Part shown: in pieces, positions 1,321-20,115 of the stretch
Layout of the letters: each line of letters opens with the position of its first letter
Numbering within the stretch: position 1 is the first letter of the stretch
DNA from: a virus
IMG/VR virus record: IMGVR_UViG_3300024344_000164
Location: 1-20,352 of that record
Length of the DNA stretch: 20,352 nt
Strand: one strand, 5' to 3'
Program-made: the position numbers and the translations under genes
The notes under the pieces: model-generated
Seen by the model: the letters and a program-made list of their open reading frames with translations, nothing else
What the model was told of the DNA's origin: nothing
The model's database searches: none

Positions 1321-1813
1321 ATAGAGGATTATTTGATTCTAATTTAATTTCTTCTATTTGTGTATTCTGTAATTCATTTTCTTTTAAAGCTATTGCAATT
1401 TGTTTAGATAGTTCTGATATTAAACTTTCAATTGATTTAATAGTCTCACGAATTGGTGCTATAATAGGGTCTATAATAAAAGGTTCTGGTATATCAAGCA
1501 TAGCCATTTCTTCTCTTATTTTTCCTATCTCTTTAAATACAGCAGTTAAATCAACAGGTTGTATTTTATCATCAACCTTTTTAATTCTATCAATTAAATC
1601 TACTTTATATTCATTAGCATACAACAATACTTCATCGAATTGTTCTGCTAATTCTTTATCTTTTTCTACTAGTGGTTGTAAATTTACTGGTGGTTCGTTT
1701 TCCAATGCAGAAAGTCTAGTATTGAACTCGCCCCACGCATAAAAACCTCCACCGATAGCTCCAATTACACCTACTAGTGCGGCATACGTGCTAAGTTTAT
1801 CCATTATTTTCAT
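1313..1813 (-). CDS. Membrane-anchored coiled-coil protein, 166 aa
   Basis: The last gene of the long - strand block. A single hydrophobic, Gly/Ala-rich span covers about residues 8-27 (ALVGVIGAIGGGFYAWGEF). The remainder is almost entirely charged helix with heptad-like leucines and isoleucines, interrupted by a Pro/Ile-rich segment (LDIPEPFIIDPIIAPI, about 107-122). An N-terminal anchor followed by a coiled coil is the layout of inner-membrane spanins (Rz-like), and equally of tail-chaperone or tape-like membrane proteins, so the role is open. The start at 1813 overlaps the stop of the 629-aa gene (ATGA); a second ATG three codons on is also possible. The 3' end overlaps the convergent + strand gene by 8 bp. 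Confidence 0.85.
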   Translation of the reverse strand: MKIMDKLSTYAALVGVIGAIGGGFYAWGEFNTRLSALENEPPVNLQPLVEKDKELAEQFDEVLLYANEYKVDLIDRIKKVDDKIQPVDLTAVFKEIGKIREEMAMLDIPEPFIIDPIIAPIRETIKSIESLISELSKQIAIALKENELQNTQIEEIKLESNNPLSN

Positions 1814-3699
1814 TGTTTAAGTGCCTCCAGTTCAGCGATTAGTTTGTTTTTTTTATTGTTTATCTCTATTAATTTAACTCTGTGTACTTCTACAGCATCA
1901 TTATCTGTGTAGGAATTTAGAGATGCTCCTACATATATCTCTCCAGAATAGGAAGATAAATCTATCTGTAAAAATAGCCCCGCATTCGCTTGTTCATATA
2001 TATCCTTTGCAGAATAAAATGCTAAATCTTTATACGAATCGAGGCTATTACTTTTAAAAAATAAATCCTCTTTTGATAAGTTTTCAGTTGTTTCTTTTGT
2101 AACTTTAGCTATTTGTTTAGCTATTTTTTTTAAATTCTGTTTTAATTTGCTTTCTATTTTTGTAACATCTGTAACAATCCTGTCATCGGTGTCCACTTCT
2201 CGGTCTTCCGATTGTATATCATCTTGCTCTCCACTTTCTTCTGTCTGTACATCGGATTCCTCAGTTGTTTCGCTATCGGATTCCTCCTCTTGTGTATCTT
2301 CTTGTGGCTCTGGTTCATTTGTTGATTCATTATTTGCTACTTCTGTTTCTTCTTCTATCGTTTCAGCTTCTGGCTCAAGCTCCACTGTTTCTTCCTCAGT
2401 TTCAATAACCTCTGGTGTGCTTTCTTCAACTGTCTCGACTTCTTCAAACTCTTCTTCAAACTCTTCAAAAGATTCCGTAGTAGGTTCATCATTAAACTCC
2501 TCCTCGGTTATCTCCTCAAAAAACTCTTCGGCTGTTATGCCTTCGTCTTCTAGAAACTCCATGAACTCTTCTTCCATGCCAGTCTCTTCTAAAAATTCAG
2601 TAAAATCCTCCTCAAATTCTTCAGTAAATATTTCCTCCATCATTTCCATAGGTGGAGGTTCTAACATATAATTCTCTTCAAAAAATACCTCTTCTATCAC
2701 AGGCATTTCTTCAAAAGTTTCAAACTCTTCAAATATTGGCGGCTGTTCAAAATCACCTATGTCAAACTCTTCCATTTCAAATTCTTCAAAGTACATATCT
2801 TCTTCCATCATATACTCGTCTTCAAAATAGAAATCAGTCCCTATCATATACTCATCTTCTTCCCAAGTATATGTATCTTCAAATACTATATCATCATTAT
2901 ACCAATCAAAATCTTCTGGAATATCTTCTATTATATCTACAATATCTTCAATAGATTCTTGAGTATCATCATCAATAGGACTATACTCTGTGTTATTATA
3001 AGTCATCGTTAAAGATGAACCTAATAAATTTGGGCCTTGTCTAGATTGATTAGTGTAGTTACTATCTGTACCTTGCCATGACCAATCTACTTTATTAGAA
3101 CCAACACCTAAGTATATAATTCTATCATTGTATTGGCCACAATTTGCAGTTATACCTGTAGTAGTTGTACCCGGATATCCGTTACAGTTACCTTGAAATC
3201 CTGTAACCTCAGTTCTAGTTTGTGTTGTAGTAGATAATATATTACCACTAGAATCTTTTAATACAATAGTTGTAGTATGAGAATCATTACTACCACCTTT
3301 GGATTCACAGTTACCTTCCGTACTTTCACAATTTGCTACATCAATATAACTATTTAATGTAATGCCATTATCTAGCATTGATTGATTAATAGAATTATTT
3401 GTTAATGCTATATCATCAACACTAACTTTTGCAGTTCCTGTTACTTCAAAGTCACCGCCTACACTATATTTGTATCCACAGTTAGATTGATTAGTACAAG
3501 TAATATCAAAGCCATTAACTGTAGAGCCATTAGTAACATACCCAGAAGAATTAGCAGAATTAATTTGGTCTGTGCTACTAGAACCCCAGTCTACTCCATC
3601 ACCAGAGTTAGGTAATAAATTACTTGTAGTTACTTCGGTGCTATTCGTGTATGTTGATAGGAGTAGGGTCAACAATAATGTCGGTATCCACAATCTCAT
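1810..3699 (-). CDS. Secreted hyperacidic protein, 629 aa
   Basis: A signal peptide at residues 1-20 (MRLWIPTLLLTLLLSTYTNS) has no lipobox. It is followed by a Ser/Thr/Asn/Gly-rich beta-type domain to about residue 240 with six cysteines at 68, 74, 124, 131, 172 and 187, which could form three disulfides after export. Residues 221-499 contain no Lys, Arg or His and about 117 Asp/Glu, often alternating with Phe, Tyr or Met (EEFEMEEF, EEFEEEFEE). A short lysine-rich helix follows (514-536), then a small folded C-terminal domain (FYSAKDIYEQ to the end). A strong AGGAGG at 3706-3711 sets the start, 59 bases inside the upstream 261-aa secreted gene. The pair is probably made and exported together. 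I recall similar C-terminal segments in marine phages, without a named function. Confidence 0.88.
   Translation of the reverse strand: MRLWIPTLLLTLLLSTYTNSTEVTTSNLLPNSGDGVDWGSSSTDQINSANSSGYVTNGSTVNGFDITCTNQSNCGYKYSVGGDFEVTGTAKVSVDDIALTNNSINQSMLDNGITLNSYIDVANCESTEGNCESKGGSNDSHTTTIVLKDSSGNILSTTTQTRTEVTGFQGNCNGYPGTTTTGITANCGQYNDRIIYLGVGSNKVDWSWQGTDSNYTNQSRQGPNLLGSSLTMTYNNTEYSPIDDDTQESIEDIVDIIEDIPEDFDWYNDDIVFEDTYTWEEDEYMIGTDFYFEDEYMMEEDMYFEEFEMEEFDIGDFEQPPIFEEFETFEEMPVIEEVFFEENYMLEPPPMEMMEEIFTEEFEEDFTEFLEETGMEEEFMEFLEDEGITAEEFFEEITEEEFNDEPTTESFEEFEEEFEEVETVEESTPEVIETEEETVELEPEAETIEEETEVANNESTNEPEPQEDTQEEESDSETTEESDVQTEESGEQDDIQSEDREVDTDDRIVTDVTKIESKLKQNLKKIAKQIAKVTKETTENLSKEDLFFKSNSLDSYKDLAFYSAKDIYEQANAGLFLQIDLSSYSGEIYVGASLNSYTDNDAVEVHRVKLIEINNKKNKLIAELEALKQ
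2203..3039 (-). repeat. Low-complexity acidic coding region
   Basis: This stretch encodes residues 221-499 of the 629-aa protein. The coding strand is purine-rich, with short recurring GAA/GAG-TTT/TTC codon blocks; the clearest near-repeat is at about 2439-2470 (CTTCAAACTCTT on the + strand). Such sequence can expand or shrink by slippage. Confidence 0.75.
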
Positions 3700-4426
3700 C
3701 TACTTCCTCCTGCTCTTTTAGTGTAGCTAACTTTTTCTTTTGCTTCTCTATTTTTATAGCAAGTTCTTCTTGTTCTTTTTGTATTCTTATAGCTTCTAAT
3801 CTTGCTTCTTCTTCCGCTATTTGTCTATCTATTCTAGCAATAGCTTCAGATTTTATTAAATAATCTTCATAGTCAGGTCTAAGTTCAGGATATTTATCCC
3901 ACATTTCTTGAGCATCTTTACCTATTTTACCATTCCACGGACATGGAGTTCCTGCACTTTGCATTGCGGCATGAACACGAGAATCTTGACAAAGTATAGA
4001 AACAGCAGCCACTTTCATTCCATAATCATATAGAACTTTAGATAACTTTATGCGTTCACAATTTAAATCCCTGACGTGTTTGCCAACAGAAGCACCAAAC
4101 CCCAAAGTAGAAACGGAACCACTAAGACCCATGCTACACACATCTTGAGACATTGAAGAGTAACTTGGTGAGTTTGCTGAGTTGACAGGTACGTCTGACC
4201 CATTGGTAGTTGTAGTATTTGTTGTTGTACTTGTTGTTGTGTTTGTTTGCCCATCATTATTATTTGTTGTTGTTGATGTATAGCCACCCGTTATCTGAGT
4301 GTTACTGCCTGAAGAATTTGTCTGGTCATTATCATCATTTGTTGAATCTGCTATAACAGGCTTTGCCCATACAGCTATTAATATTAATATCATTAACAAT
4401 ATAAAATTGTTTAGCACCCACTTCAT
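3641..4426 (-). CDS. Secreted protein with Asn/Thr linker and Cys domain, 261 aa
   Basis: A signal peptide covers residues 1-27 (hydrophobic FILLMILILIAVWA, likely cleavage after PVIA). Residues 28-88 are an Asn/Thr/Ser/Gly low-complexity linker. A compact domain with four cysteines (97, 123, 146, 162) spans about 90-185 and includes DYGMKVAAVSILCQD and AGTPCPWNGKIG. Residues 186-240 are a strongly charged continuous helix, and the tail is acidic with prolines. I recall similar Cys-domain motifs in marine phage hypothetical proteins but know no function. The gene follows the 77-aa gene by 16 bases with a GGGAGAA ribosome site. Its last 59 bases contain the start of the 629-aa secreted protein, which suggests coupled expression of two exported partners. 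Confidence 0.87.
   Translation of the reverse strand: MKWVLNNFILLMILILIAVWAKPVIADSTNDDNDQTNSSGSNTQITGGYTSTTTNNNDGQTNTTTSTTTNTTTTNGSDVPVNSANSPSYSSMSQDVCSMGLSGSVSTLGFGASVGKHVRDLNCERIKLSKVLYDYGMKVAAVSILCQDSRVHAAMQSAGTPCPWNGKIGKDAQEMWDKYPELRPDYEDYLIKSEAIARIDRQIAEEEARLEAIRIQKEQEELAIKIEKQKKKLATLKEQEEVDEIVDTDIIVDPTPINIHE
3706..3711 (-). promoter_or_regulatory. AGGAGG Shine-Dalgarno of the 629-aa gene
   Basis: A perfect AGGAGG on the - strand lies six bases before the ATG at 3699, inside the coding region of the 261-aa gene. It decides the start of the downstream gene and explains the long overlap. Confidence 0.8.
4205..4277 (-). repeat. Asn/Thr codon repeat
   Basis: Tandem ACA/AAC-type triplets (seen as GTTGTTGTT on the + strand) encode the Asn/Thr linker of the 261-aa secreted protein. 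The tract is prone to slippage and gives an overlapping shadow frame. Confidence 0.7.
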
Positions 4427-6003: not shown

Positions 6004-6198
6004 CTAGTCAGTTATTTTCATAAAAGCCCATATAGCACCAAGCACACCACCTATTGCTAAAAATACTTTTATTCCTCCAACTCCCATGTTGGATGTAGCG
6101 TTCAAATCTCTAATTTGTTTTTGCATAATGTTTAAATCTTCTCTGATGTAGCGAACATCTGTTTTTAGTTCAGCTATTTCTTTTTCCCACTCAGCCAT
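6004..6198 (-). CDS. Coiled coil plus C-terminal TM, holin/XhlA-like topology, 64 aa
   Basis: Residues 1-33 form a charged coiled coil (EKEIAELKTDVRYIREDL, MQKQIRDL) and residues 41-60 a membrane span (GGIKVFLAIGGVLGAIWAFM), with a four-residue polar end. This is the layout of XhlA-type haemolysin/holin-associated proteins and of several phage small membrane proteins. The sequence is too short to assign the family firmly. Its ATG overlaps the TAA of the 1457-aa gene (TAATG), so its translation probably depends on ribosomes finishing that giant frame. It begins the membrane cassette that continues to 1313. Confidence 0.84.
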   Translation of the reverse strand: MAEWEKEIAELKTDVRYIREDLNIMQKQIRDLNATSNMGVGGIKVFLAIGGVLGAIWAFMKITD

Positions 6199-9100
6199 TA
6201 TACTATTCTATTTCTTCCGGGTTGATTTTTAATTTGTTCTTGATTTATACCAATTCCTTCATTGGCTTGTAAAGAACGTTCATCTTCGTTATCATAAAAT
6301 GATTTAGAATTAGTGTTAGCATAACTAGAAAATATTTCTTTAGCTCTTTCTTGAGATTCAAAATAAGGCATCCAATCTTTGTAAGGTGTTTCCCATTCTC
6401 CTTGACCACCAAATTTATTTGCAAATTCTGGTAATCCTTCTGTATCACCTCTAGATATTCTTATCATAGGTTTCATCCACCATTTCAAAAAGTCTTTTCT
6501 AATTGTTGGTTTTAATAATCCTTTGTCAAAAATAACAGTAGCTAAAAGATATGATGCCTCTGGGTCAGTTGCCATTTGTTCTAGCATTCTACCTTTTCTA
6601 AATCTCACATCTTGAATTAACAATTCTGTTAATACATAACGAGGAGATACAACACCTCTTGCAATTGAGTACATTCTAGATATAATTTGCTCAACTCTAA
6701 ATTGTCTTGGTAATTGGTCAACTGTTGCAGGTGTGATATCACCGACTACAACATTTAATAAAGAACGCATTTCTTCTAGTTCTTCAAATCTATTTTGTCC
6801 TGTTATAGGATTTTTACCCATAAACTTTTTTAAAATATTTCTATTACTATCAATATATTCTTCAAATACATCAATCTTCATATCAAGTACTCCTTTAAAT
6901 CCCTTTTTACCTCTGCTTCCTATATCTCCTATTTGTATTCCCTGTCTTCCGGCATTAGAAAATAAAGATTCCATTGCCCCATCATATAACATACGTTCAA
7001 AACCTTGCATAGCAACTTTATCACCACTATCTTTAATAATTTTTGCAACAGCAGAAGCTAAATCAGTATTGCCACCACCATAACTGCTATCTAAAATGGC
7101 TTTTCTAAAGTCCTCTTCTTTTGTTATTCCTTTTAATTGTTTTAGATTTTCTATATCTACATTACCTAAATCTTTTGTTAATGCCTCATCTACTCCTCGT
7201 TTCATTCTATCACCTACATATTGAACATCTTTTTCTAAACGTCTAAATACAGGTTCTAAAACTGTTTGTATTCTAGATATAGTTTCTTTATTTGTAGGGA
7301 AAGAACCTGATGCAATTTGTCCTGCAATTTTTCTTCCATACTCTGTTGTTTCTGGGTCATCTAATTTATGTCCTAAAACATCAGAAAATTCTTCGAACCA
7401 TCCATCTTTAGGTTTTTTATTTAATTCTAATTTATTTATTAATGCTTCATTCATTAATTTTTTTGCTGTTTTTAAATCTTCTGCATCATCAAAGATAGAA
7501 TTAAATAATCGTTTTGATTCAACAGGGTCTTTTGCATCCATAAATACATCAAAAAGATTTGTTGAACCTGTTAGTCTATCACCACTTCTGCTTTTAGCAA
7601 TTAATTTTTTAGCAATTCCTCTTCTCCATACTGAACCAATTGTTCTGTACCAATTATCATTTGCTTTTTTCCAAGCTATTGCTGATTTATCACCACCTTC
7701 TCCTGCAAATTTATTTAAACTTGCTGTAATGCTATCAGCTAAATCCATATTTAACCATGCATTAGTTTTATTTGTAGCATTTAATGCACTATTTGCTCCA
7801 CTGTATAGCCCCTGTCTCCATCTAACTAAATCTTTTAATGAAATTTTCAAATTAATTTCTGGTAATTGTGCTCCAGTATACAGAGCTAGTGACTCTATTA
7901 AAGCTTGTGGCCCATTAGTTTCCAGTATATTTGCTATTTCATCTGGTGTTTTCTTTAAAACTCCTTCTGCATATTGTGCTAAAGCTTCAACATTTGTTTG
8001 TTCACCACTACCAAATTTTTCTATTAATCCCTGTTCTCTTTTTTCTACAAGTTCATCATAGAATTTCATTTCTGGTGTCCCTAGTCCTGCTAATCTTCTT
8101 GCATCATCAGGATTTTCATCCATTAATTTATATATTCGTCCTCCAAAATCTGCTGCGATTTCATTAGCCATATTTTCATTTAAAGAAACATTATCTTTAT
8201 ATCCCGGAATTTCATCATACATTCTATGACCTGCATCAAAGTCTACTTTAGATACTTTATTAATTAATTTTTCTGATGCTGTTCCAAATTTATTTAATGA
8301 AGCATCACTAGATAGTCCTCTATCAACTAATAAAATACTACGATTATTTCCATTAACATCTTTATACCCATATCGTACAACACCATTTCTTGAAAATAAA
8401 TCTTTCATATTTGTAGAATCTGCACCTTGTACAAAAGATGGAATTTCATTATAATTAATACGTTTTAAAAATGTTCCCGGTTTATCTGGGTCTTCAAGTC
8501 TTAAAAATCCTGCTTCATCTAAATCAAATGCTCTTGATTCTAACAGTTCACTTGCCGCACCATCTATTTGCTGTGTTTCAATTTTTAATTTTGTAACGTT
8601 TGCATCAATTATTTTATTAACTTCATTATGATTATAACTTTGTAAACGTTCATAATTATCATTAACTTGTTTTTTAAATGCACGTAATAAACTTCCAAAT
8701 CTTGAATCACCATATTGTTGTGCACCATATTCCATTAATATTTCATTTAATGCATTAGATTGTTCCGCAATTCTTTTTTGCATTTCTAATTTATTTGGGT
8801 CTCTAAGTATATTTGTTATGCTTGGTAATTTACCTACATTAGCTCTACCCATAACTCGTGATTCAATTGTTTGTAACGCACTTAAATTAAGTGAATGTGA
8901 TAACATTGAATAAACTCTACCTGAACCATCATCATATTTACTTAACATTTCATGTAATACTTCTAATTGTAACTTAATATCTTCTCTCATTTCTCTAGGA
9001 AGTTTATCAATTTCATCAGCTAATCTTCTAAACTCTCTTAATTTAGTTCTTTCTGCTTTTTTAATTATACCTCCTGTCATTGATGGGAATGTTGTAGCCA

Positions 9101-10571
9101 TTCTTGAATAAGAAGCCTTAACTGAATCAGGCATATTTAATATTTCTCTTTCCTTAAACCCAATTCCACGTAAAAATGCATTTGTTTTTTCTGCATTATC
9201 TAATGTATCACTAGATTTCCATCTCATTGCGTTTACCCAGTCACCCCCATAACGAACAGCACCACCAATTAATCTAGGCCCCATTAAGCCGCCACCAATT
9301 TCTCCGATTACAGAAGCCCATCGTCCTAGAACTTCCTGTGCTGTCATTCCCATTGTTGCTGAAGCTAACATTGCATAAGTTTCTGCCTCTGCAAATGCTC
9401 CTGCCGGTAATGCTTTCATCCATAAACCTTCTGTTGTATACAAATCAACATTCTTAATCATTTTTTCAGCTTCTTTTGCACCTTGTTCAGCCGAAACTTT
9501 TTTTCTAATTTCTCTTGTAGTTACTCTTGATTTTTTCAAAGCTTCCATTTGTTCTTTAGTACTTTGTTTTACAATATTACCATTTTTATCTATAACTAAA
9601 CCTTTTCTAGCAATACTTTCAACTTCACCTCTACTCATACTTTTAACTTTAGCTACTTGTAATATCGCATCATCATATTTTGTTCCGCTTTCAACTAAAC
9701 TTTTAACCATTGTTGCAGCCCCAGTTCGTGCTTCTTTAATACCTGCTGCTTTATCTCCAAAATACCTAACATATTTTTTTGCTCTTAATACTCTTCCTAA
9801 ACCTAATGTTCCTATAGTCCCTAATTCAGCCGCTAAAATTTCAGCAAAATTTCCTATTTTTCCTAGTTCTTGTCCTTCAAATGGTGCTATAATATGACCA
9901 TCTGGTGTTAGTACTCCTTGCTCTTTATCAACCATTTTTAACCAGTAATGATGTTTCCATCTGTTTGCTGAATTATCATTTGGACGAGCTACATCTAATC
10001 GTACAAAATCTCTAGGATTTGCTGTAACATATGCCCAAGCTTCCATAGGGCCATCTGGATTACCTGTTGTCAATGCTCTACGTCTAGCATTTGCAATATA
10101 CTTTTCTATTGGGTCTTTTCTGCTATCATATTTAAAAGCAGGTAACCCCATATACCTATTATGAATCCAGTCAAGAGGTTTTGCTAAATTTTGTGGGTCT
10201 ACCCCTTCTCTTACTAAATCAACTAAACCATTCCATACTAAAGCAGTGCCTCTTATTGAGCCTTTTCTAGCACGTTCATGTACAGGGTCATTTTGTGCTG
10301 CATTTTTATTATAAATTAATCCTCCTTTAGGATTATTTGCATTCGTACTTGCTAATGAAAAAATTGCATCAGACGCTGCTTCTTCATCATCAATACGACT
10401 ATCCCATGTTTCTTGATTTTGCCTTTTAAAATATTCTGTTAAAGTATTTAATGAATTTGCACCATATTTTTCTTCAAAATCATATTCACCAATTTCTATA
10501 AACTCATCAAATAAATCTCTTGATTTCTGTTTAGCTATAAATTTTCTTTTTTCATCTGATGTCATTACCAT
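6198..10571 (-). CDS. Giant internal-virion/ejection-type protein, 1457 aa
   Basis: By far the longest gene, over a fifth of the window. It is mostly charged alpha-helix with coiled-coil potential. Two less polar zones stand out: about residues 241-262 (FAEILAAELGTIGTLGLGRV) and about 388-440 (Gly/Ala-rich, including GEIGGGLMGPRLIGGAVRYG). These could interact with membrane. No lytic transglycosylase, protease or other catalytic signature was found. Size, helix content, weak hydrophobic zones and position after the fibre and neck genes, directly after another large helical protein, resemble the internal core/ejection proteins of short-tailed phages (gp15/gp16-like). This is inference from architecture, not sequence homology. 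The first ATG (10571) is preferred over one two codons later because an AAGGAG lies about ten bases upstream. Confidence 0.9.
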   Translation of the reverse strand: MVMTSDEKRKFIAKQKSRDLFDEFIEIGEYDFEEKYGANSLNTLTEYFKRQNQETWDSRIDDEEAASDAIFSLASTNANNPKGGLIYNKNAAQNDPVHERARKGSIRGTALVWNGLVDLVREGVDPQNLAKPLDWIHNRYMGLPAFKYDSRKDPIEKYIANARRRALTTGNPDGPMEAWAYVTANPRDFVRLDVARPNDNSANRWKHHYWLKMVDKEQGVLTPDGHIIAPFEGQELGKIGNFAEILAAELGTIGTLGLGRVLRAKKYVRYFGDKAAGIKEARTGAATMVKSLVESGTKYDDAILQVAKVKSMSRGEVESIARKGLVIDKNGNIVKQSTKEQMEALKKSRVTTREIRKKVSAEQGAKEAEKMIKNVDLYTTEGLWMKALPAGAFAEAETYAMLASATMGMTAQEVLGRWASVIGEIGGGLMGPRLIGGAVRYGGDWVNAMRWKSSDTLDNAEKTNAFLRGIGFKEREILNMPDSVKASYSRMATTFPSMTGGIIKKAERTKLREFRRLADEIDKLPREMREDIKLQLEVLHEMLSKYDDGSGRVYSMLSHSLNLSALQTIESRVMGRANVGKLPSITNILRDPNKLEMQKRIAEQSNALNEILMEYGAQQYGDSRFGSLLRAFKKQVNDNYERLQSYNHNEVNKIIDANVTKLKIETQQIDGAASELLESRAFDLDEAGFLRLEDPDKPGTFLKRINYNEIPSFVQGADSTNMKDLFSRNGVVRYGYKDVNGNNRSILLVDRGLSSDASLNKFGTASEKLINKVSKVDFDAGHRMYDEIPGYKDNVSLNENMANEIAADFGGRIYKLMDENPDDARRLAGLGTPEMKFYDELVEKREQGLIEKFGSGEQTNVEALAQYAEGVLKKTPDEIANILETNGPQALIESLALYTGAQLPEINLKISLKDLVRWRQGLYSGANSALNATNKTNAWLNMDLADSITASLNKFAGEGGDKSAIAWKKANDNWYRTIGSVWRRGIAKKLIAKSRSGDRLTGSTNLFDVFMDAKDPVESKRLFNSIFDDAEDLKTAKKLMNEALINKLELNKKPKDGWFEEFSDVLGHKLDDPETTEYGRKIAGQIASGSFPTNKETISRIQTVLEPVFRRLEKDVQYVGDRMKRGVDEALTKDLGNVDIENLKQLKGITKEEDFRKAILDSSYGGGNTDLASAVAKIIKDSGDKVAMQGFERMLYDGAMESLFSNAGRQGIQIGDIGSRGKKGFKGVLDMKIDVFEEYIDSNRNILKKFMGKNPITGQNRFEELEEMRSLLNVVVGDITPATVDQLPRQFRVEQIISRMYSIARGVVSPRYVLTELLIQDVRFRKGRMLEQMATDPEASYLLATVIFDKGLLKPTIRKDFLKWWMKPMIRISRGDTEGLPEFANKFGGQGEWETPYKDWMPYFESQERAKEIFSSYANTNSKSFYDNEDERSLQANEGIGINQEQIKNQPGRNRIV

Positions 10572-10573
10572 TA

Positions 10574-12760
10574 TTATTCTTCTCCTTGTATATTTGGAAC
10601 TCTATTATCAATTGTTTCATCCGTACTCCCTATTTTATTTAATAAAGATTGAGGAACATTTGGTAAATATCGTTTTAAATAAGCTTCTTTCATAAGTTTT
10701 GCTATAGGTATATCTCCTTTATATCCGCTAAACATTGTATTAGCTAAACGTGCTATAGCTTTATCAAGACCATAGTATGCTGTTTCTGGTATATCAGGCA
10801 GTTGTCCCGGTTCTTGAATTTGAAACTCTTGTTGTACTTCTGTGCCTAATAAATCATGTATAGCTTGAGCAACATTCCAATAATTCATTTGTTTATCACC
10901 ACCATATGTAATAGTCTCACCTTTTAACCACTCGATTTGAGAAGCTAAAGGTTTATTTTCCCATTTATCTTCTATGCCAAAATCAGGTAATTGATTTATA
11001 TCACTTATTTTTTGTTCTAATTCATTATCTGGAATAATCATTAATTTTTGCCTATCACTCATTCCCTGAAATAAAGTTCCTATATCTTTATCATTAACAG
11101 CCGATACAAGTTGTCCTCTATCATCAAGTTTAACATCTGGTGCAGCACCATAATTATCATCCATAAATTTTCGTATTACTGCAACTCGTTTACTCATAAT
11201 TTTATTTGGTTTAAATATAGTTTCATATTCATCCCATAAATTTTGTTTAGCTTTTATAAAATTATTATATTTTGCCATAATTGCAGCCCCATGTTCAGAA
11301 GTTTCTCCAGAAAATATTTCTGCAGAAATTTGTGATTTACGTACAGAATCTTTAATAATATCTAATCGTGCTATTACCGAAGTTGCATCACTTAACCATC
11401 CACCTTTAACACGTTTTAATGCTTGTTCAAAGTCATTATCAGATACTGCTTTACCACCAGAACCTTGTTCAATTTTTGCTAATCTATAAGCAATGCTAAT
11501 TGTTAAAACATCTTTTTGAGCTTCAATTACTTGATTAACATAATCTTGTTTCATCCCTGAATCTTTCATTTTTCGATAAGCTGAATTTAATGTATCATAT
11601 GCTTCTTGCATTTGTATATGAGTTGTAGAATCAGCAGCCATGTCTCCAAAATCTACAATTCCAAGTTCTCTATTATGTCCACTAACAATTTCTCCCATCA
11701 AACTTGATAATTTTCTTAATTGAGCATCCGGGCCATAAACTGCTTCTGCTAAAATTTGAGAAATTGCTGCTGCGGCACCGGCTGTTCCAGACTCTTCATA
11801 AAATCCTCTTAATTTATCAATTTCTGTTATGAGAAGTTCTGTTTCAGCTAAAGCATTTTGTGCAACACCTGCCATTTGTTTTACTGTTTCTTCTGAGTTA
11901 CCCATAGATACTTTTGTATAGGAATCTCCACTTCTATTTAATTTATATTTTTTATGGCCTACATATAAAGCTTCAACAATTTGACTATCACTTAAACCAT
12001 AAGATGCTTGAAGTTCAGCTAATTCTCTCATATATGTATGTGTAGTAATATATTTTTTACTTCTTTGGTATCCTAATGTTGCTGCAACTTTCATCCAAGG
12101 CTGTTGATTTGATGCTTGTGTTTCTGACATATTACCATACTGACCATTTGTTAATACTTCATGTCCAAAATTGTCACCATAAGTTTCTTCAAAATTTGGT
12201 ATGTTTTCCCAATCAAAATCTTCAGGATGTTCTGTTACTATATCTTTATTAATATTTAATGTTTCCCCAGTTTTATCATCAATCTTTTTATCTAATTCCC
12301 ATGTTGGGTCAACACCTCTAATACCTTCAAAAAATCTGTTCCCTAAAACATTTTCTAAATTACTATAATCATAAGCCTGTATAACATTATTACCTTCACC
12401 ATCTGGACGATAATGAAAAAAATCATTTGCTTTTGCTACTAAATATGATTGTAAATTATCTAGGTCATATGCACTCATTGATTGTAATGCTTTTATATTG
12501 TCAGGATTATCAAAGGCTCTTACAGCATTATTAAACAATACTCTTCGTTTTGCAGGGTCATTAGGAGCATTTGTTAAATCAGAACCATATTGAATATGAA
12601 AATCACCAAAAAATTCATCATCTAATTCTTCATTTAGATGTTTTTGTTTTTGTAATGACATCGTTTCTATTTCTTTTTGACCTGCAAGATTTCTTTGTTC
12701 TTGCATAATATCTGAAAATTTACCGGCTGCTCCACCAATAAATGCGTATAATCCTGCCAT
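10574..12760 (-). CDS. Large helical virion protein, ejection-type candidate, 728 aa
   Basis: It begins with a short Gly/Ala-rich stretch (MAGLYAFIGGAAGKF). The rest is long charged helices broken by an acidic, aromatic segment at about residues 110-205 (including DDKTGETLNINKDIV and HPEDFDWENIPNFEE). There is no signal peptide, no clear transmembrane span and no recognised enzyme motif. The gene is joined to the 189-aa gene by a TAATG overlap and to the 1457-aa gene by a two-base gap, so the three are surely co-expressed. The pairing of a ~700-aa and a ~1400-aa helical protein parallels gp15 and gp16 of T7-like phages. A structural or internal-virion role is likely; the exact one is inferred. 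Ribosome site GAGGAGG. Confidence 0.9.
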   Translation of the reverse strand: MAGLYAFIGGAAGKFSDIMQEQRNLAGQKEIETMSLQKQKHLNEELDDEFFGDFHIQYGSDLTNAPNDPAKRRVLFNNAVRAFDNPDNIKALQSMSAYDLDNLQSYLVAKANDFFHYRPDGEGNNVIQAYDYSNLENVLGNRFFEGIRGVDPTWELDKKIDDKTGETLNINKDIVTEHPEDFDWENIPNFEETYGDNFGHEVLTNGQYGNMSETQASNQQPWMKVAATLGYQRSKKYITTHTYMRELAELQASYGLSDSQIVEALYVGHKKYKLNRSGDSYTKVSMGNSEETVKQMAGVAQNALAETELLITEIDKLRGFYEESGTAGAAAAISQILAEAVYGPDAQLRKLSSLMGEIVSGHNRELGIVDFGDMAADSTTHIQMQEAYDTLNSAYRKMKDSGMKQDYVNQVIEAQKDVLTISIAYRLAKIEQGSGGKAVSDNDFEQALKRVKGGWLSDATSVIARLDIIKDSVRKSQISAEIFSGETSEHGAAIMAKYNNFIKAKQNLWDEYETIFKPNKIMSKRVAVIRKFMDDNYGAAPDVKLDDRGQLVSAVNDKDIGTLFQGMSDRQKLMIIPDNELEQKISDINQLPDFGIEDKWENKPLASQIEWLKGETITYGGDKQMNYWNVAQAIHDLLGTEVQQEFQIQEPGQLPDIPETAYYGLDKAIARLANTMFSGYKGDIPIAKLMKEAYLKRYLPNVPQSLLNKIGSTDETIDNRVPNIQGEE

Positions 12761-13329
12761 TATATTCCTCCTCGTTTAGGCATAAATCCACCTAAGTCTT
12801 GTGGTAATTGTGCCATTTGTTCTTCAATAGCTTGAGCTTCTTCCATTTCCATATCTGGTTGCTCTTCCTGTTGCCCTTCTTGTGCTGCTAATAATGCTGC
12901 ATATTTATCAGGTTCATTTTCATTAAGCATCATCATTAAATCATTATCATCAACACTATTTTGTTCTTCAGGAGGAACATTAAATAATACAGCTTCTATA
13001 TTATTATTTCTTGCTTCTCCAATAAAATATGTCGCTAATGCAGGTTTAATTATTTCTGCTGTATCAGGAGACCATTTACCTTCTACAAATCCCATAAATG
13101 TAATCGTATTTACCATAGATTCTATAGGTGTACCTGCCGCCATTAAATCTAGCATATTAACTTTTACTTTTGGTTGACTTTCTATTTTTTCAATAATACC
13201 TATAGCTGCTTCATCTGGTTTAGAATGCTGTGGGGGATTTTCCCAAGGACGATTTTGTAATGTTGAAGTCATTCCTTCTCCGGGAATAGGTCTATTAAAT
13301 GGGTCAATATTTTGTAGTTGTTTTTTCAT
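12760..13329 (-). CDS. Conserved structural-region protein, 189 aa
   Basis: Three parts are visible. The N-terminus is Pro-rich with PFNRPIPGEGM and RPWENPPQ (10-35). A central helical domain carries LDLMAAGTPIE (60-70) and GFVEGKWSPD (80-89). The C-terminus is acidic, Gln/Met/Glu-rich (about 140-180, EGQQEEQPDMEMEEAQ) and ends in a short basic tail (PKRGGI). I recall the PGEGMT...PWE...PP and EGKWSPD motifs from structural regions of marine T4-like and other phages, without a defined function. The acidic tail could suit a chaperone or scaffold-like role, which is speculation. Both ends are TAATG junctions with the neighbouring genes. Confidence 0.86.
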   Translation of the reverse strand: MKKQLQNIDPFNRPIPGEGMTSTLQNRPWENPPQHSKPDEAAIGIIEKIESQPKVKVNMLDLMAAGTPIESMVNTITFMGFVEGKWSPDTAEIIKPALATYFIGEARNNNIEAVLFNVPPEEQNSVDDNDLMMMLNENEPDKYAALLAAQEGQQEEQPDMEMEEAQAIEEQMAQLPQDLGGFMPKRGGI

Positions 13330-13769
13330 TATGATAATTTCTCACTTCCTAAACCAATTGTTGGTGATGCAGCTTCAGATGATGTTGATTTACTATAAAT
13401 ATCATAGTTACCAATTCTATTTTTTCTGTATACAGCTTCCATATATGGTTGATTTGCTAAAGTATCCATTCCTGTTTTTACAGAAAAATTATTTTGATTA
13501 AATAATTCTTGTAATGCTTCTTTCATTGCTCTAACTTGTGCTTTATCACCACTAGGACTAGGAGCATAAGTTGTAATACCGGGTAATGTAAACCCTGCTT
13601 GTTGTACTCTTTCTTGTATTCCTGCAGTACCATCTTTATCAGCACCTAAAAATTTTCTACCTATATCTATAAATCCTTTTGCCTCCCCTAATTCTGCTGT
13701 CCCACTTAAAACTTTAGATACCAGTGGTGTACCTGCTACAATTAAAGGTAATATTGATTTTAAATCCAT
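13329..13769 (-). CDS. Hypothetical structural-region protein, 146 aa
   Basis: The N-terminus is mildly hydrophobic (LKSILPLIVAGTPLVSKVLSG, about 3-23), possibly an amphipathic or weak membrane segment. It is followed by Gly-rich and helical stretches (EALQELFNQNNF) and a Ser/Ala-rich end. No cysteine and no recognised motif is present. It is joined to the 189-aa gene by TAATG and follows the 578-aa hendecad protein by nine bases, with an AGGAG ribosome site overlapping that gap. Its place between a fibre-like protein and the ejection-type giants suggests a minor virion component. Confidence 0.83.
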   Translation of the reverse strand: MDLKSILPLIVAGTPLVSKVLSGTAELGEAKGFIDIGRKFLGADKDGTAGIQERVQQAGFTLPGITTYAPSPSGDKAQVRAMKEALQELFNQNNFSVKTGMDTLANQPYMEAVYRKNRIGNYDIYSKSTSSEAASPTIGLGSEKLS

Positions 13770-13778
13770 TCTAATCTC

Positions 13779-15515
13779 CTAACCAGTTGTTTTTTCTCCA
13801 GAACCTTTTAAGTTAAATATACCATCAATAACAGCAGCACCTAAATTCATCCACATTGCATCTTTTGCTTTTTGATTATAAGAACTCATTGAAAAATTAT
13901 TTTGCTGTGCTGTTAAAGCTGCTTGATGTGCTCTTGCTTCTCTTGATTCAACTAAATTAACAAACCATTCTGCTTCATCTCTATATCTATTCCACAATCT
14001 ATTTTGTGCTGTAGTAGTTAAATCTAAAAGATTCTGTGCATTGATTTGATTAACTCTATTTTGTTCTGCTGTATTTGTTGTATTAATAGCTCTTCTCCAT
14101 TGCACATTTGATTGGTTAATTAACTGTGTCATTTCAGCATTAAATTTATCACGACTATCTTCCATTTGTGCATCAAACTTACGTAAAGAGTTTGCTTGGT
14201 CAACGTTAAATTGTTGCTGTGCGGAAGTTCTATTAAAATTTGCTGCTTGTACTTGTGCTCCAAGCTGTGCAAAAAATTGACTAATTTGATTTTGACTAGT
14301 AGCATTAAATTGTTCAGCCGCATTAGTTGCCGCTTGGTCAGTAAATAATCCTTGATTTTTTGCTTGTGCATTTAATGCTGAAGCTTGTTGTTTATTGTCT
14401 AAATTTTTCATATCCATTTGTAAAAATTGTCTTGCATTTTCAACTGCTGAAGTTAATCGTGCGTCTAGATTTTTTGTATCCATACCTGCTAATGTTGCTG
14501 CATTTTGTAAAGCAGCTTGTTGATTATTATTTAAATTAGCAAGTTTCATTCCCTGCATCATTTTAGCATTTTCTAATGCTATTGTTTGCTCAGATGTAAA
14601 ATTTAAATTATTAACTTCAGAAATTTTTGCTGCATTTGCGGCTCTAGCTTGTTGCTCATTTGTTAATTCTTGTCCTTGCATTGCTGCTCTCATTTGAGCA
14701 TTTATAATAGCTGTCTGCTGTCTGTTACTTAAATTCTGTAATGCAAATTTTTGATGTACTTGGGCATCGGCTGCGGCAATAGGTACAACGGATTCCATCA
14801 TTGCATGAATAATAGCTTGACCGGCCATACTTGATTGTCCTAAACCTCTTTGAGCCATAACTGCATTTGCTTTAGTTATTGCAGGTGCCGCCCATTGTGG
14901 TATTTGACCATTATTAAATTGGCCCATTAATTGTTGTAGCTGATACTGTACAGTTGCTTCTTCTGGTGTATTAATTTCTTGAGCAGTCGCTGTTGTGTAA
15001 CCTCCAACATCTGATTGAGATGCGGCTGTAAATAATTCTGATGGGGAAAGTGTTCGTGTTACTTGAGTTGCTTGTGCTGCTGTTTCTTGAGCAGAAGTTG
15101 CTAATGCTTGTTGACTAACTGTACCTTGTGGAGCACTAATAGCTCCTTGAGAAACATTACCTAATTGAGCATTTGCTTCAGCTACAGAATTTAAAACATT
15201 TGTAGAAGAATAAGTTCCGGGGGTTGGTGTTGATGGTGCAGTTACACTTAAACCTGTAGTTGGAACTTGTTGTGAAGTAGTTGCTTGTACATCACCAACT
15301 GTTGTTCCTGTTGTAGTTTCTAATTCACCAGTTGCTAATGCTGCAGGAACTGTTGTTACTTCCGTACCACTAGGTAATGCGGTAGGTGTTGCCCCTGCTC
15401 CCTGTGCATTAATTCCTGCCTGTCCCATAGCTTGTTCAAGCTGTGGTTGATGTCTCTGCTCTAAAGTAGGAGTAGTTGTTCCGCCTGTTTGATATTTTTT
15501 CTTTTTAGTCGCCAT
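13779..15515 (-). CDS. Gln/Asn/Ala-rich hendecad-repeat virion protein, 578 aa
   Basis: Residues 1-20 are basic (KKKKYQTGG). Residues 20-240 are Thr/Ala/Gln/Pro-rich, probably extended or disordered. Residues 250-492 are a regular 11-residue repeat: Asn or Asp recurs at 250, 261, 272 and so on to 492, in 21 of 23 positions, usually followed by Leu, Ala, Val or Phe. Paired, this gives 22-residue units such as LSNRQQTAIINA and LNNNQQAALQNA. The period predicts a long straight or right-handed helical bundle. The C-terminus has aromatic helices (WNRYRDEAEWFVNL) and ends with a short hydrophobic patch (MNLGAAVIDGIFNL). It is coupled to the 44-aa gene by TAATG. A long fibrous virion part is the best guess; no family is recognised. 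Confidence 0.9.
   Translation of the reverse strand: MATKKKKYQTGGTTTPTLEQRHQPQLEQAMGQAGINAQGAGATPTALPSGTEVTTVPAALATGELETTTGTTVGDVQATTSQQVPTTGLSVTAPSTPTPGTYSSTNVLNSVAEANAQLGNVSQGAISAPQGTVSQQALATSAQETAAQATQVTRTLSPSELFTAASQSDVGGYTTATAQEINTPEEATVQYQLQQLMGQFNNGQIPQWAAPAITKANAVMAQRGLGQSSMAGQAIIHAMMESVVPIAAADAQVHQKFALQNLSNRQQTAIINAQMRAAMQGQELTNEQQARAANAAKISEVNNLNFTSEQTIALENAKMMQGMKLANLNNNQQAALQNAATLAGMDTKNLDARLTSAVENARQFLQMDMKNLDNKQQASALNAQAKNQGLFTDQAATNAAEQFNATSQNQISQFFAQLGAQVQAANFNRTSAQQQFNVDQANSLRKFDAQMEDSRDKFNAEMTQLINQSNVQWRRAINTTNTAEQNRVNQINAQNLLDLTTTAQNRLWNRYRDEAEWFVNLVESREARAHQAALTAQQNNFSMSSYNQKAKDAMWMNLGAAVIDGIFNLKGSGEKTTG
14040..14768 (-). repeat. Hendecad (11-residue) repeat tract
   Basis: This stretch encodes residues 250-492 of the 578-aa protein. 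Asn, or less often Asp, occupies every eleventh position without insertion or deletion over 23 positions (exceptions Glu283 and Phe415). Successive units differ widely at the DNA level, so the repeat is old and held by protein structure. Confidence 0.85.
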
Positions 15516-17379: not shown

Positions 17380-18633
17380 TTATCCCTCCAATGCTGCTAC
17401 TTTAGTTTCTAAAGTTTCTATTTTTGTTATTGCTTCTTGTAATGCTCCAGTTAGTAAAGGAACTAATTTTGACTGGTCAATACCTTGCATATTTTCACCA
17501 TCTTTTTCTCCACTAATAGCTTCTGGTACAATACCAGAAACCTCATGTGCAAAGAAACCATCTACAGTTTTATCTTTATCTACTTTAAAATTAAATTTGT
17601 AAGGTTTAAGTTGTTTAACTCTTGTTATACCATCAGTAATAGCTGTTTCATTTTCTTTTAATCTGTAATCTGAAGATGTGTTGTATTGAGTAGCAGAACT
17701 TGTTCTATTAATTGTTCCTACTTCATTACCACCAACCTTAAACATATATAATGTTGTAGTGCCAGTTGCTGTGCCGTTGTGAACTACATAAGCCTCAGTT
17801 GAGCCACCTTTAATAGTCATATAGCCATCACCAGCAGTACCGGGAATATGAATATCTCCATTACTTGCTAGTTGCATTCTTTCTGTAGCATTGGTAACAA
17901 ATTTCATCATATTAGTGTCGTGATGATACCTTAATTGTCCTATATCATTATCTCCACTATCACCAAAATTTATAAAACTTTCACCACTTGTAGAATTAAG
18001 AAATGTCATTCCGTTATCACCATTTCTTTCTATAATTAATTCATCAGCACTACTATGAACATCAGCACCTGTATCAGAAATTCTGATATGAATACCTGCA
18101 CCTAAATCTTTAGCTGTAACAACACCTAAAGTTGGAAGTAGTGTTGTACCAGAAACATCTAAGTTTCCATTTAAATCAACTAAAGTAGCAGCTAATTCTA
18201 TTTCATCTGTTGCCGCAATATCTAAAACAGTTGCACTAGCACCTTGTATATATTGTGAAGCGTCATTAAAACAAAGTTTGTTTGTGCTATTTAAAGTTAA
18301 TCCTGTTCCATCAGTATGTGTTAAAATAGTATCTTGGTCATTACCAAATTGAATTGTTCCACCATCAGCTAAAAATAAATCACTCCATTCAGCAGAAGCT
18401 GTACCTAAAGAATCTCCATCAGCAGAACTTGGGTCAGCAGAACTTGCTGTTGCCCATGATAATGTACCACTACCATTTGTTGATAGCATTTGACCACTAG
18501 AACCATCAGCACTTGGTAAAACCCAAGCTACATTAGAACTTACAGTTCCTGCTGATTTAAATGAAACATAATTTGAATCATCTGAATCATAGAGCTTTAG
18601 TTCTCCGGTTGCGTTTACTCTTATCTCTGCCAT
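17380..18633 (-). CDS. Tail fibre with C-terminal S74 chaperone domain, 417 aa
   Basis: The N-terminal part is a beta-repeat shaft with the linker LPSADGSSGQMLSTNGSGTL (39-58), close to the one in the 460-aa protein. A module at about 176-255 starts DLGAGIHIRI and includes FGDSGDNDIG; it is paralogous to one in the 493-aa fibre. The S74 intramolecular chaperone begins at Ser321 in the motif SDYRLKEN, with Lys326 as the second member of the Ser-Lys dyad. In endosialidase-type fibres this self-cleaves before the serine, so about 97 C-terminal residues should be released after trimerisation. The end is a trimeric coiled coil (TKIETLETKVAALEG). The gene follows the 493-aa fibre directly; its own last codons carry the ribosome site of the next gene. 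Confidence 0.93.
   Translation of the reverse strand: MAEIRVNATGELKLYDSDDSNYVSFKSAGTVSSNVAWVLPSADGSSGQMLSTNGSGTLSWATASSADPSSADGDSLGTASAEWSDLFLADGGTIQFGNDQDTILTHTDGTGLTLNSTNKLCFNDASQYIQGASATVLDIAATDEIELAATLVDLNGNLDVSGTTLLPTLGVVTAKDLGAGIHIRISDTGADVHSSADELIIERNGDNGMTFLNSTSGESFINFGDSGDNDIGQLRYHHDTNMMKFVTNATERMQLASNGDIHIPGTAGDGYMTIKGGSTEAYVVHNGTATGTTTLYMFKVGGNEVGTINRTSSATQYNTSSDYRLKENETAITDGITRVKQLKPYKFNFKVDKDKTVDGFFAHEVSGIVPEAISGEKDGENMQGIDQSKLVPLLTGALQEAITKIETLETKVAALEG
17383..17673 (-). other. S74 chaperone domain of the 417-aa fibre
   Basis: Residues 321-417, from the SDYRLKEN motif (Ser321, Lys326) to the terminal coiled coil. Cleavage is expected between Ser320 and Ser321 by analogy with the family. 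Confidence 0.85.
17384..17389 (-). promoter_or_regulatory. GGAGGG ribosome site inside the 3' codons of the 417-aa fibre gene
   Basis: The codons for Leu-Glu-Gly at the end of the fibre coiled coil read TTGGAGGGA, placing GGAGGG nine bases before the ATG at 17374. The C-terminal residues and the next ribosome site share the same bases. Confidence 0.7.
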
Positions 18634-20115
18634 CTAACCCTCCAATGCCTTAACTTTAGTTTCTAAAGTTTCAATTCTTGTTTGTGCTTCTTGCAATGCT
18701 TTAATTGCTTTCATATATAATACAGAATATTTTATTGATTTAACTTTTTGTTTTTCTTCTCCAACTTTTTTATTATATATAACATTACCACTACCATCTA
18801 ATTTTTCATCACCAATTTTTTTACCACTTGGTATTGTATCTCCATCTTGATAATACTTAGGACTACTTGTATCATCTACTAATGTACCAAAAGCACTATC
18901 TGATAAAACATCATTAACTGAAGGTGGATTTTCTTTTATTAATTTTGGAGAAACTAATTCAGCTTCTTGTGCTACTAAACCAATTTCTGTCCATGCTTTA
19001 TCCTCTCCGTATTGTCTAACATCATCTTTCTTTTTAAAATTTCTTACTTTTAATGCTTTAATATCATTCCATTGAGAGTTTGCATCAACTATATTTTGTT
19101 TAATTCGTTGGTCAGATATTGCTCCATAAGAATTATCGTGATTTACAACATCACCATCTACAAAAACCATGAAACGCATAGCACTTGAATCTTGTGCGGC
19201 ATAAAACTTTTGAGCAGTAGAGTCATTATTACTACCACTTGTATTAATAATAAGTCCACTTGGGTCACCTGCGTGAACATTATCAGCATTAATCCACCAA
19301 TTACCACTAATTCCTGTACCATCTTTAATTGTTAAAAAAACATCAGAAGCTGATGTAACACCTAATCCCATAGTGTTAGTATCACCATTAGTAAATATCA
19401 TATGAGTATTACCATTAGATTCTACTCTAAAATCTACATCGTCTGAATCATTATTTACTACAACTTCAGCACCACCAACTTGTAGTGTATGATTTGCACC
19501 CGCACCAAATATCATTCTTTCGTTATTGTGTTCATAAGTAATAAAACCTACATCATTATCTCCACTATCTCCAAAAAATATATTTCCACTATTACTCGTA
19601 CCACTTAGTATGGACATACCAGAATTACCACTACCTTCAATAACCAACTCATCTGCATCTGAACTAACACTTGCACTACTATCGGCTGTTTTAATATGAA
19701 GTCCTGCACCTAAGTCACCTTCCGCACCTACTCCAACAACATCATTACCACCACTAACAAATAGCATATTAGCATTACCATTAGATTCAACTCTAAAATC
19801 CAAGTCATCAGAATCTTCATTAATAACAACTGCTGTATCCGTAATTGTTAATTGGTCATCATTAGAAGATGTTTGGTCATCAATACCTGCTAACGCACCA
19901 AATCCATTTGCTGTACCACTATTTGTAATAGTTGCTCCAGAATCAATTGTTAGAGTAGTGCCAGATAATACATTAATAGCATTAGCCCCAATTCGTAAAT
20001 CTTCTGCACCAGAAACATATACTTTTAATGTATCGTCTGTTGCTCCTTCTATATATGTATCACCATCAGAATCTAAAATTAATTTCTGATTAGCACCATC
20101 TACTTCAATACCCAT
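18634..20115 (-). CDS. Tail fibre with C-terminal S74 chaperone domain, 493 aa
   Basis: It begins MGIEVDGANQKLILDSDGDT and has a beta-repeat shaft. An internal duplicate has the motif DSDDxDFRVESNGNxxMxF at about 101-119 and 223-241. The module starting DLGAGLHIKT (134-213) is 37/70 identical by hand count to one in the 417-aa fibre. A GNWWINADNV patch (271-280) is distinctive. The S74 domain begins at Ser334 in SDQRIKQN with Lys339; self-cleavage would release about 160 residues. That is longer than the 97 of its paralogue because of an insertion (about 395-455) with YYQDGDTIPSGKKIGDEKL. The terminal coiled coil matches that of the 417-aa fibre at 18 of 21 residues. Start one base after the 57-aa gene. 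Confidence 0.93.
   Translation of the reverse strand: MGIEVDGANQKLILDSDGDTYIEGATDDTLKVYVSGAEDLRIGANAINVLSGTTLTIDSGATITNSGTANGFGALAGIDDQTSSNDDQLTITDTAVVINEDSDDLDFRVESNGNANMLFVSGGNDVVGVGAEGDLGAGLHIKTADSSASVSSDADELVIEGSGNSGMSILSGTSNSGNIFFGDSGDNDVGFITYEHNNERMIFGAGANHTLQVGGAEVVVNNDSDDVDFRVESNGNTHMIFTNGDTNTMGLGVTSASDVFLTIKDGTGISGNWWINADNVHAGDPSGLIINTSGSNNDSTAQKFYAAQDSSAMRFMVFVDGDVVNHDNSYGAISDQRIKQNIVDANSQWNDIKALKVRNFKKKDDVRQYGEDKAWTEIGLVAQEAELVSPKLIKENPPSVNDVLSDSAFGTLVDDTSSPKYYQDGDTIPSGKKIGDEKLDGSGNVIYNKKVGEEKQKVKSIKYSVLYMKAIKALQEAQTRIETLETKVKALEG
18637..19116 (-). other. S74 chaperone domain of the 493-aa fibre, with insertion
   Basis: Residues 334-493: SDQRIKQN motif (Ser334, Lys339), the core chaperone fold, an inserted Gly/Lys/Asp-rich segment before the end, then the conserved coiled coil. 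Confidence 0.85.
18638..18643 (-). promoter_or_regulatory. GGAGGG ribosome site inside the 3' codons of the 493-aa fibre gene
   Basis: The same Leu-Glu-Gly codons as in the neighbouring fibre place GGAGGG four bases before the ATG at 18633. The two fibre genes share this junction design. Confidence 0.7.

Follow-up and report, generated by a model that had tools for sequence, protein, structure and literature searches.

A protein family of abundant marine bacteriophages, which includes a 578-aa protein of the window (here the whole 20,352-base stretch of DNA that was analysed, 33% G+C), possesses a central rod with asparagine or aspartate at every eleventh residue and a length that changes in whole 11-residue steps. 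Among the matches listed, 287 of 288 distinct sequences have a rod length equal to 8 mod 11, over a range of 151–778 residues (fivefold). The whole 11-residue steps suggest that the rod is a structural component of the virion with strict phasing, probably one that belongs to the DNA-delivery machinery. Neither the register nor the step rule appears to have been described in the literature searched. Based on its G+C content and its relatives, which also indicate the host, the window is probably a fragment of an HMO-2011-type pelagiphage.

Within the window protein, Asn or Asp falls at residue 250 (from nt 14768) and at every eleventh residue thereafter to residue 492 (ending at nt 14040) in 21 of the 23 positions (18 Asn and 3 Asp; exceptions Glu283 and Phe415), with coordinates exactly as given in the original prediction, and the residues in this register read DNNENNNNNNNNNDNFNNDNNNN. 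The 21 observed compare with a mean of 7.4 (sd 1.1) and a maximum of 12 in 2000 composition shuffles with the same period, each scored as the best over 18 start offsets. A formal scan of periods 2–39 confirmed 11 as the top period for Asn/Asp (z 14.4), followed by 22 and 33. The residue after the Asn/Asp is mostly Ala, Leu, Val or Phe, as had been claimed, and switches between Leu and Ala with a weaker 22-residue period; the rod contains neither Pro nor Cys. The hendecads also differ at the DNA level, as reported earlier: Tandem Repeats Finder returned no tandem repeat for them and only two short chance rows in the window DNA, and with the Asn codon left out the mean identity of the codon blocks is 0.35, compared with 0.32 for shuffled codons. 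On these two results, tandem repetition of the DNA and a recent expansion were both rejected for the window. The original prediction understated the register, which is common to the family and is obeyed by the rod length.

Table 1. The rod gene, its parts and the genes downstream of it in the window
Feature	Positions	Strand	Description
1457-aa gene	6198..10571	-	Downstream of the rod gene; location and size range fit a gp16-type ejection protein (positional evidence only)
728-aa gene	10574..12760	-	Downstream; location and size range fit a gp15-type ejection protein (positional evidence only)
189-aa gene	12760..13329	-	Downstream; conserved neighbour of the rod gene
146-aa gene	13329..13769	-	Downstream; cassette position kept, sequence not conserved
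578-aa rod protein, whole gene	13779..15515	-	Homologues in phage records and IMG/VR contigs
Residues 1-179	14979..15515	-	N-terminal segment, T/A/P/Q/G-rich, predicted mostly disordered
Residues 183-250	14766..14969	-	Conserved helical domain, N-terminal anchor of the rod
Residues 250-403	14307..14768	-	Rod region I, 14 hendecads; hydrophobic faces {1,5,9} and {3,7,10}
Residues 404-502	14010..14306	-	Rod region II; Phe-Asn dyads in 9 hendecads, stripe 3/7/10 hydrophobic, helix modelled with confidence by AF2
Residues 470-535	13911..14108	-	Conserved C-terminal helical segment (NVQWRR...LWNRYRDEAEW), C-terminal anchor

Searches of Pfam and PHROG gave no match to the window protein, and tblastn located homologues in 27 phage records, with best figures of 2e-89 to CRP-1 and 3e-79 to HMO-2011 gp25. 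The homologues belong to HMO-2011, the roseophages CRP-x, the pelagiphages HTVC033P/103P/104P/115P, Vibrio CHOED, Aeromonas MQM1, Pseudoalteromonas Slicky01, Sinorhizobium phiM6, Rhizobium RHph and a spring-water podovirus, and at least about 320 additional rod loci are present in IMG/VR. The family occurs throughout the HMO-2011-type podoviruses, and the window protein is placed in it by homology across the N- and C-anchor domains, which were aligned in 24 proteins (N-anchor consensus IPxWA...RGLGxSSxAGxAxxxAxxESxLPIAxxDA; rod region I consensus NLxNxQQxAxL / NAxxFLxMDMx). The last part of the register lies within the C-terminal anchor, and the N-terminal segment varies freely in length, in some relatives carrying LysM, RTX or DUF4214 domains. 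Relatives with the same period were sought and found, 11 being the strongest Asn/Asp period in every isolate homologue. A profile search of genome contigs with a CRP-3-like alignment returned one truncated relative, in a Rhodobacteraceae MAG, and thus the rod family is essentially virus-only at that sensitivity. The rod protein of the spring-water podovirus (MW202701, 1351–3942) is annotated as huntingtin, surely a misannotation and probably one prompted by the abundance of Gln in the rod.

Across the 24 proteins aligned first, the spacing between the Pro of the PIA motif (P245) and the Trp of the WRR motif (W473) takes eight values between 151 and 338, all of them 8 mod 11. The count across the larger set was made with profile anchors, since a plain regular-expression anchor (213 of 224 at 8 mod 11) hit false anchors in the variable N-termini; with only literal Pro and Trp anchors kept, the rule holds in 239 of 240 sequences among the matches listed. 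An anchor slipping by one repeat alters the length class and not the mod-11 result, and such slips are unlikely because the Pro and Trp are conserved. Rod lengths fall into at least 20 classes (151, 162, 173, 184, 217, 228, 239, 272, 283, 305, 316, 317, 338, 426, 448, 536, 558, 646, 668 and 778), and the sole exception among the matches listed (L219, length 317) carries one additional residue near the C-anchor (NSNLAIEQSN), which may come from a sequencing error or may be an insertion that the rod tolerates. The flanks of the same proteins have at least 170 N-terminal and at least 61 C-terminal distinct lengths, which cover all residues mod 11. On a tree of the anchors (FastTree, 140 columns of anchor segments) there are at least 39 length changes and at least nine switches between odd and even hendecad number, and as this tree has few columns, a safe lower bound for the changes is 19, one fewer than the number of lengths. 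With all hendecads stacked, Asn or Asp occupies position 0 in 75%, and position 0 is the best conserved phase (0.93) among rods of length 228. Selection on structure, originally suggested as the keeper of the hendecad phase, is supported.

The larger rod lengths form two series, 228+110n and 316+110n, and self-comparison of the longest rods is strongest at a lag of 110, with amino acid identity up to 0.56. Adjacent 330-bp blocks of ten hendecads are up to 87% identical in L134, L136 and L166 (778) and in L135, L140 and L176 (668), so some of the changes in the rod are recent whole-block duplications. Taken with the 110n series and the lag of 110, these similar blocks indicate that the rod lengthens mainly by duplication of ten-hendecad blocks, and changes of one and two hendecads occur too.

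The strict 11-residue period without insertions agrees with a hendecad (11/3) repeat, and by structure prediction this repeat is very probably alpha-helical. Two AF2 runs, one of the full protein with 44 sequences (pLDDT 62, pTM 0.29) and one of residues 180–578 with 66 relatives of the same rod length (pLDDT 61.5, pTM 0.26), modelled the single-chain rod as helix throughout with zero strands. A continuous helix of 36 nm had been proposed, and this stands for one part of the rod, as a long single helix was modelled at residues 392–541 (pLDDT about 72–86 for 400–530, the confident part being about residues 392–510, mostly at 70–86), but not for about residues 280–390, where confidence is low and the helix has breaks, several of them at NLxN motifs. 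Neither the rod model, by Foldseek, nor the rod protein has a match in the PDB, and the best Foldseek matches in BFVD have no informative names. A beta-solenoid with an Asn ladder, considered in view of the 2.75- and 2.2-residue harmonics of the hydrophobic residues, was set aside on the helix-only model, a weaker ground in the low-confidence stretch (about residues 300–390), and a leucine-rich repeat was rejected because the rod spacing is unlike LxxLxLxxNxL.

On an 11/3 wheel, the rod has four faces: positions 0, 4 and 8 (Asn and charged residues), the hydrophobic faces 1, 5, 9 and 3, 7, 10, and positions 2 and 6 (Gln, Ser and Thr). Charged residues fill 23–31% and hydrophobic residues 22–27% of the cells of the face that holds the Asn (0 deg). 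The 1, 5, 9 face is strongest in residues 261–393 and the 3, 7, 10 face in residues 404–502, and the family-wide hydrophobic moments lie at about 104–117 deg and 301–312 deg, respectively, not at 0 deg. Because the Asn flanks hydrophobic contact faces and lies off the centre of the stripe, the idea of a buried Asn ladder in a coiled-coil core is not supported. The pattern suggests that the rod helix has neighbours on two sides, and with hydrophobic faces on both sides of the Asn line its most likely packing is lateral, against further copies of the protein or against a partner. In a permutation test on the harmonics, which has just 11 positions to work with, the wheel asymmetry is not significant (p 0.12 or more), so the face pattern is descriptive only.

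The cassette order of rod, small protein, about 180 aa, several hundred aa and giant protein is kept in most isolates, and a relative of the 189-aa gene lies near the rod in 244 of the 288 loci listed (blastp). A tblastn search of 50,697 phage records detected no relatives of the 1457-aa protein, even though its cassette position is conserved, and the Slicky01 counterpart of this giant matches virion structural PHROGs. One CRP-3-like rod also matches a PHROG named virion structural protein. Upstream of the rod gene are a 107-aa gene and three long genes; positions 17380–18633 (minus strand) encode an S74 domain (Pfam) and 18634–20115 (minus strand) an S74-like one, identified by eye. Across 17380–20115 the two adjoining fibre-like proteins have paralogous stretches in common (GAGLHI...SGDNDVG / SGDNDIG), and both have C-termini of the S74 type. 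Pfam detects no Peptidase_S74 domain in the window rod protein and a C-terminal S74 on four isolate rods (CRP-3, CRP-235, CRP-738 and CRP-212). Directly after the rod gene of HTVC115P (3512–3961) is an HlyC-family acyltransferase (PF02794, E 1e-15), the kind that activates RTX proteins, and with RTX repeats in some rod N-termini, fatty acylation of the rod protein is possible. Elsewhere in the window, a 629-aa protein (1810–3699, minus strand) is hydrophobic at its N-terminus and extremely acidic in its middle, which is rich in Glu, Asp, Phe and Met; another part, rich in Ser, Thr and Asn, is related to proteins of pelagiphages that carry a carbohydrate-binding annotation. The overlapping gene at 3641–4426 (minus strand) encodes 261 aa with a signal-like N-terminus, Thr/Asn repeats and a weak Pfam New_glue match under the cut-off.

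The best explanation for the rod protein, and one that we would give an even chance, is that it is a virion protein of the DNA-delivery (pilot/ejection) set of an HMO-2011-type podovirus. The cassette at 6198–15515 would encode this set, and the rod protein would be carried in the particle and released on infection, whereupon it would form or brace a helical conduit in the host envelope. Its central rod would be a long alpha-helix of 11-residue (three-turn) units with Asn/Asp on one line, and this phased amide line may set the helix-helix register or line the conduit. The gene position, the S74, LysM and RTX additions in relatives and the layout of Salmonella phage 7-11 point to such a role, and LysM or RTX at some N-termini fits with envelope contact. 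Against it, rods of 778 residues would extend 117 nm as one straight helix (by arithmetic), too long for the periplasm or the capsid unless folded. The literature searched held no virion proteomics showing the rod protein. Phages of a single host strain, FZCC0040, have rods of 162 (CRP-3, CRP-235 and CRP-212) and 217 (CRP-207), so the host envelope does not by itself dictate how long the rod is, and the same difference contradicts rod length as a gauge of the host periplasm.

Comparison with known systems yielded likenesses in layout and working, and the rod showed no homology to known ejection proteins. As in the gp14/gp15/gp16 gene order described for podoviruses, the cassette has smaller genes followed by one of ~700 aa and one of ~1300–1450 aa (PMC8954989), whereas the rod gene is an extra upstream member. 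No homology of the rod to T7 gp13, gp14 or gp15 was found with hhalign (probability at most 0.3% for gp14/gp15). To our knowledge, T7 has no such phased repeat. In phage 7-11, a gene annotated as DNA ejection protein (gp20; phiEco32/7-11-type) occupies the equivalent place in a similar cassette and shares the C-terminal S74 of the CRP-3-like rods; the window rod differs in having no S74, and gp20 has no 11-residue Asn register and, outside S74, no similarity to the rod.

The closest working parallel, drawn by analogy, is phiX174 H (PDB 4JPP as cited), ten copies of which form an alpha-helical DNA tube with a lumen where 18 of 23 residues are Asn, Gln or Arg (PMC7354561). Like the rod, H is a long Pro-free helix with hendecads each starting with the same amide residue (Gln in H: QKELTKMQLDN / QKEIAEMQNET / QKEIAGIQSAT), and its N+Q+R content is 30%, compared with 34% in the window rod. 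Unlike the rod, H has only three hendecads followed by heptads, measures 17 nm, belongs to an ssDNA microvirus and has a different hendecad face pattern. The likeness does not amount to membership, as there is no significant similarity between the two (hmmsearch E 0.49; hhalign probability 0.4%) and H is a known decamer, whereas the rod is known here from sequence and a single-chain AF2 model. A 37-residue stretch of H that looks similar (MENTNLSKQQQ) falls short of significance. It would be unlikely, in our judgement, that the ejected protein of these tailed dsDNA phages of the sea makes an envelope-spanning tube, analogous but unrelated to H, with one Asn ring per hendecad lining the DNA channel and a length that evolves digitally, by hendecad steps of 1.65 nm and ten-hendecad modules of 16.5 nm.

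The main rival to a role in DNA delivery is an external trimeric tail fibre, whisker or needle, in which the rod would be a parallel hendecad coiled-coil stalk fixed at one end, with a C-terminal S74 chaperone trimerising some relatives; this we regard as somewhat unlikely. For MyRF and tailspikes, the S74/ICA fold is tied to trimerisation (PMC8326128), which favours a stalk for the CRP-3-like members that end in S74, large length variation through module duplication is typical of stalks, and rods of 117 nm would fit more easily outside the particle. However, conservation is among the highest at the C-anchor and the variable end is the N-terminus, the reverse of a receptor-binding fibre, and the phage 7-11 protein annotated for DNA ejection also ends in S74. 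Further, since the window encodes separate fibre-like proteins upstream, the rod is not needed as a fibre.

Tail tape measure proteins are long, helical and ejected, and 11-residue repeats are described for some of them. A tape-measure-like ruler or scaffold, determining how long an internal core or short tail becomes with the hendecad as length unit, would match the alteration of rod length by whole units only (287 of 288 among the matches listed), and the rod resembles tape measures in being long, helix-rich and length-variable with modular repeats. Such a ruler is nevertheless very unlikely, given that there is no tape-measure family match in Pfam or PHROG, that the constant residue of the rod is Asn and not aromatic, that rods differ in length on one host strain and that the phage group is short-tailed (PMC9038755) while the rod varies fivefold. 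Even less probable is an amphipathic 11-mer helix that binds the host membrane in the manner of alpha-synuclein, perilipin or apolipoproteins and either disrupts it or coats it: the 11/22-residue periodicity, the high Gln/Ala/Asn content, the absence of Pro and the envelope pointer of LysM or RTX in relatives would suit it, but the rod is low in Lys/Arg, has two hydrophobic faces instead of one and in region I shows a weak single-face alpha moment (0.52). That the step rule reflects unequal recombination between tandem repeats, with no structural meaning, is scarcely credible, as the recent block duplications of the longest members would fit it but the hendecads of the window have low DNA identity, indels of other sizes were almost never kept in the 288 sequences listed and the neighbouring segments vary freely.

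With at least 20 rod lengths and one 11-residue step, the family is a natural experiment on the phase that a long helical assembly must keep. It also offers length and Asn-ladder variants that lend themselves to direct testing with a cultivable phage such as phiM6, which grows on Sinorhizobium meliloti 1021.
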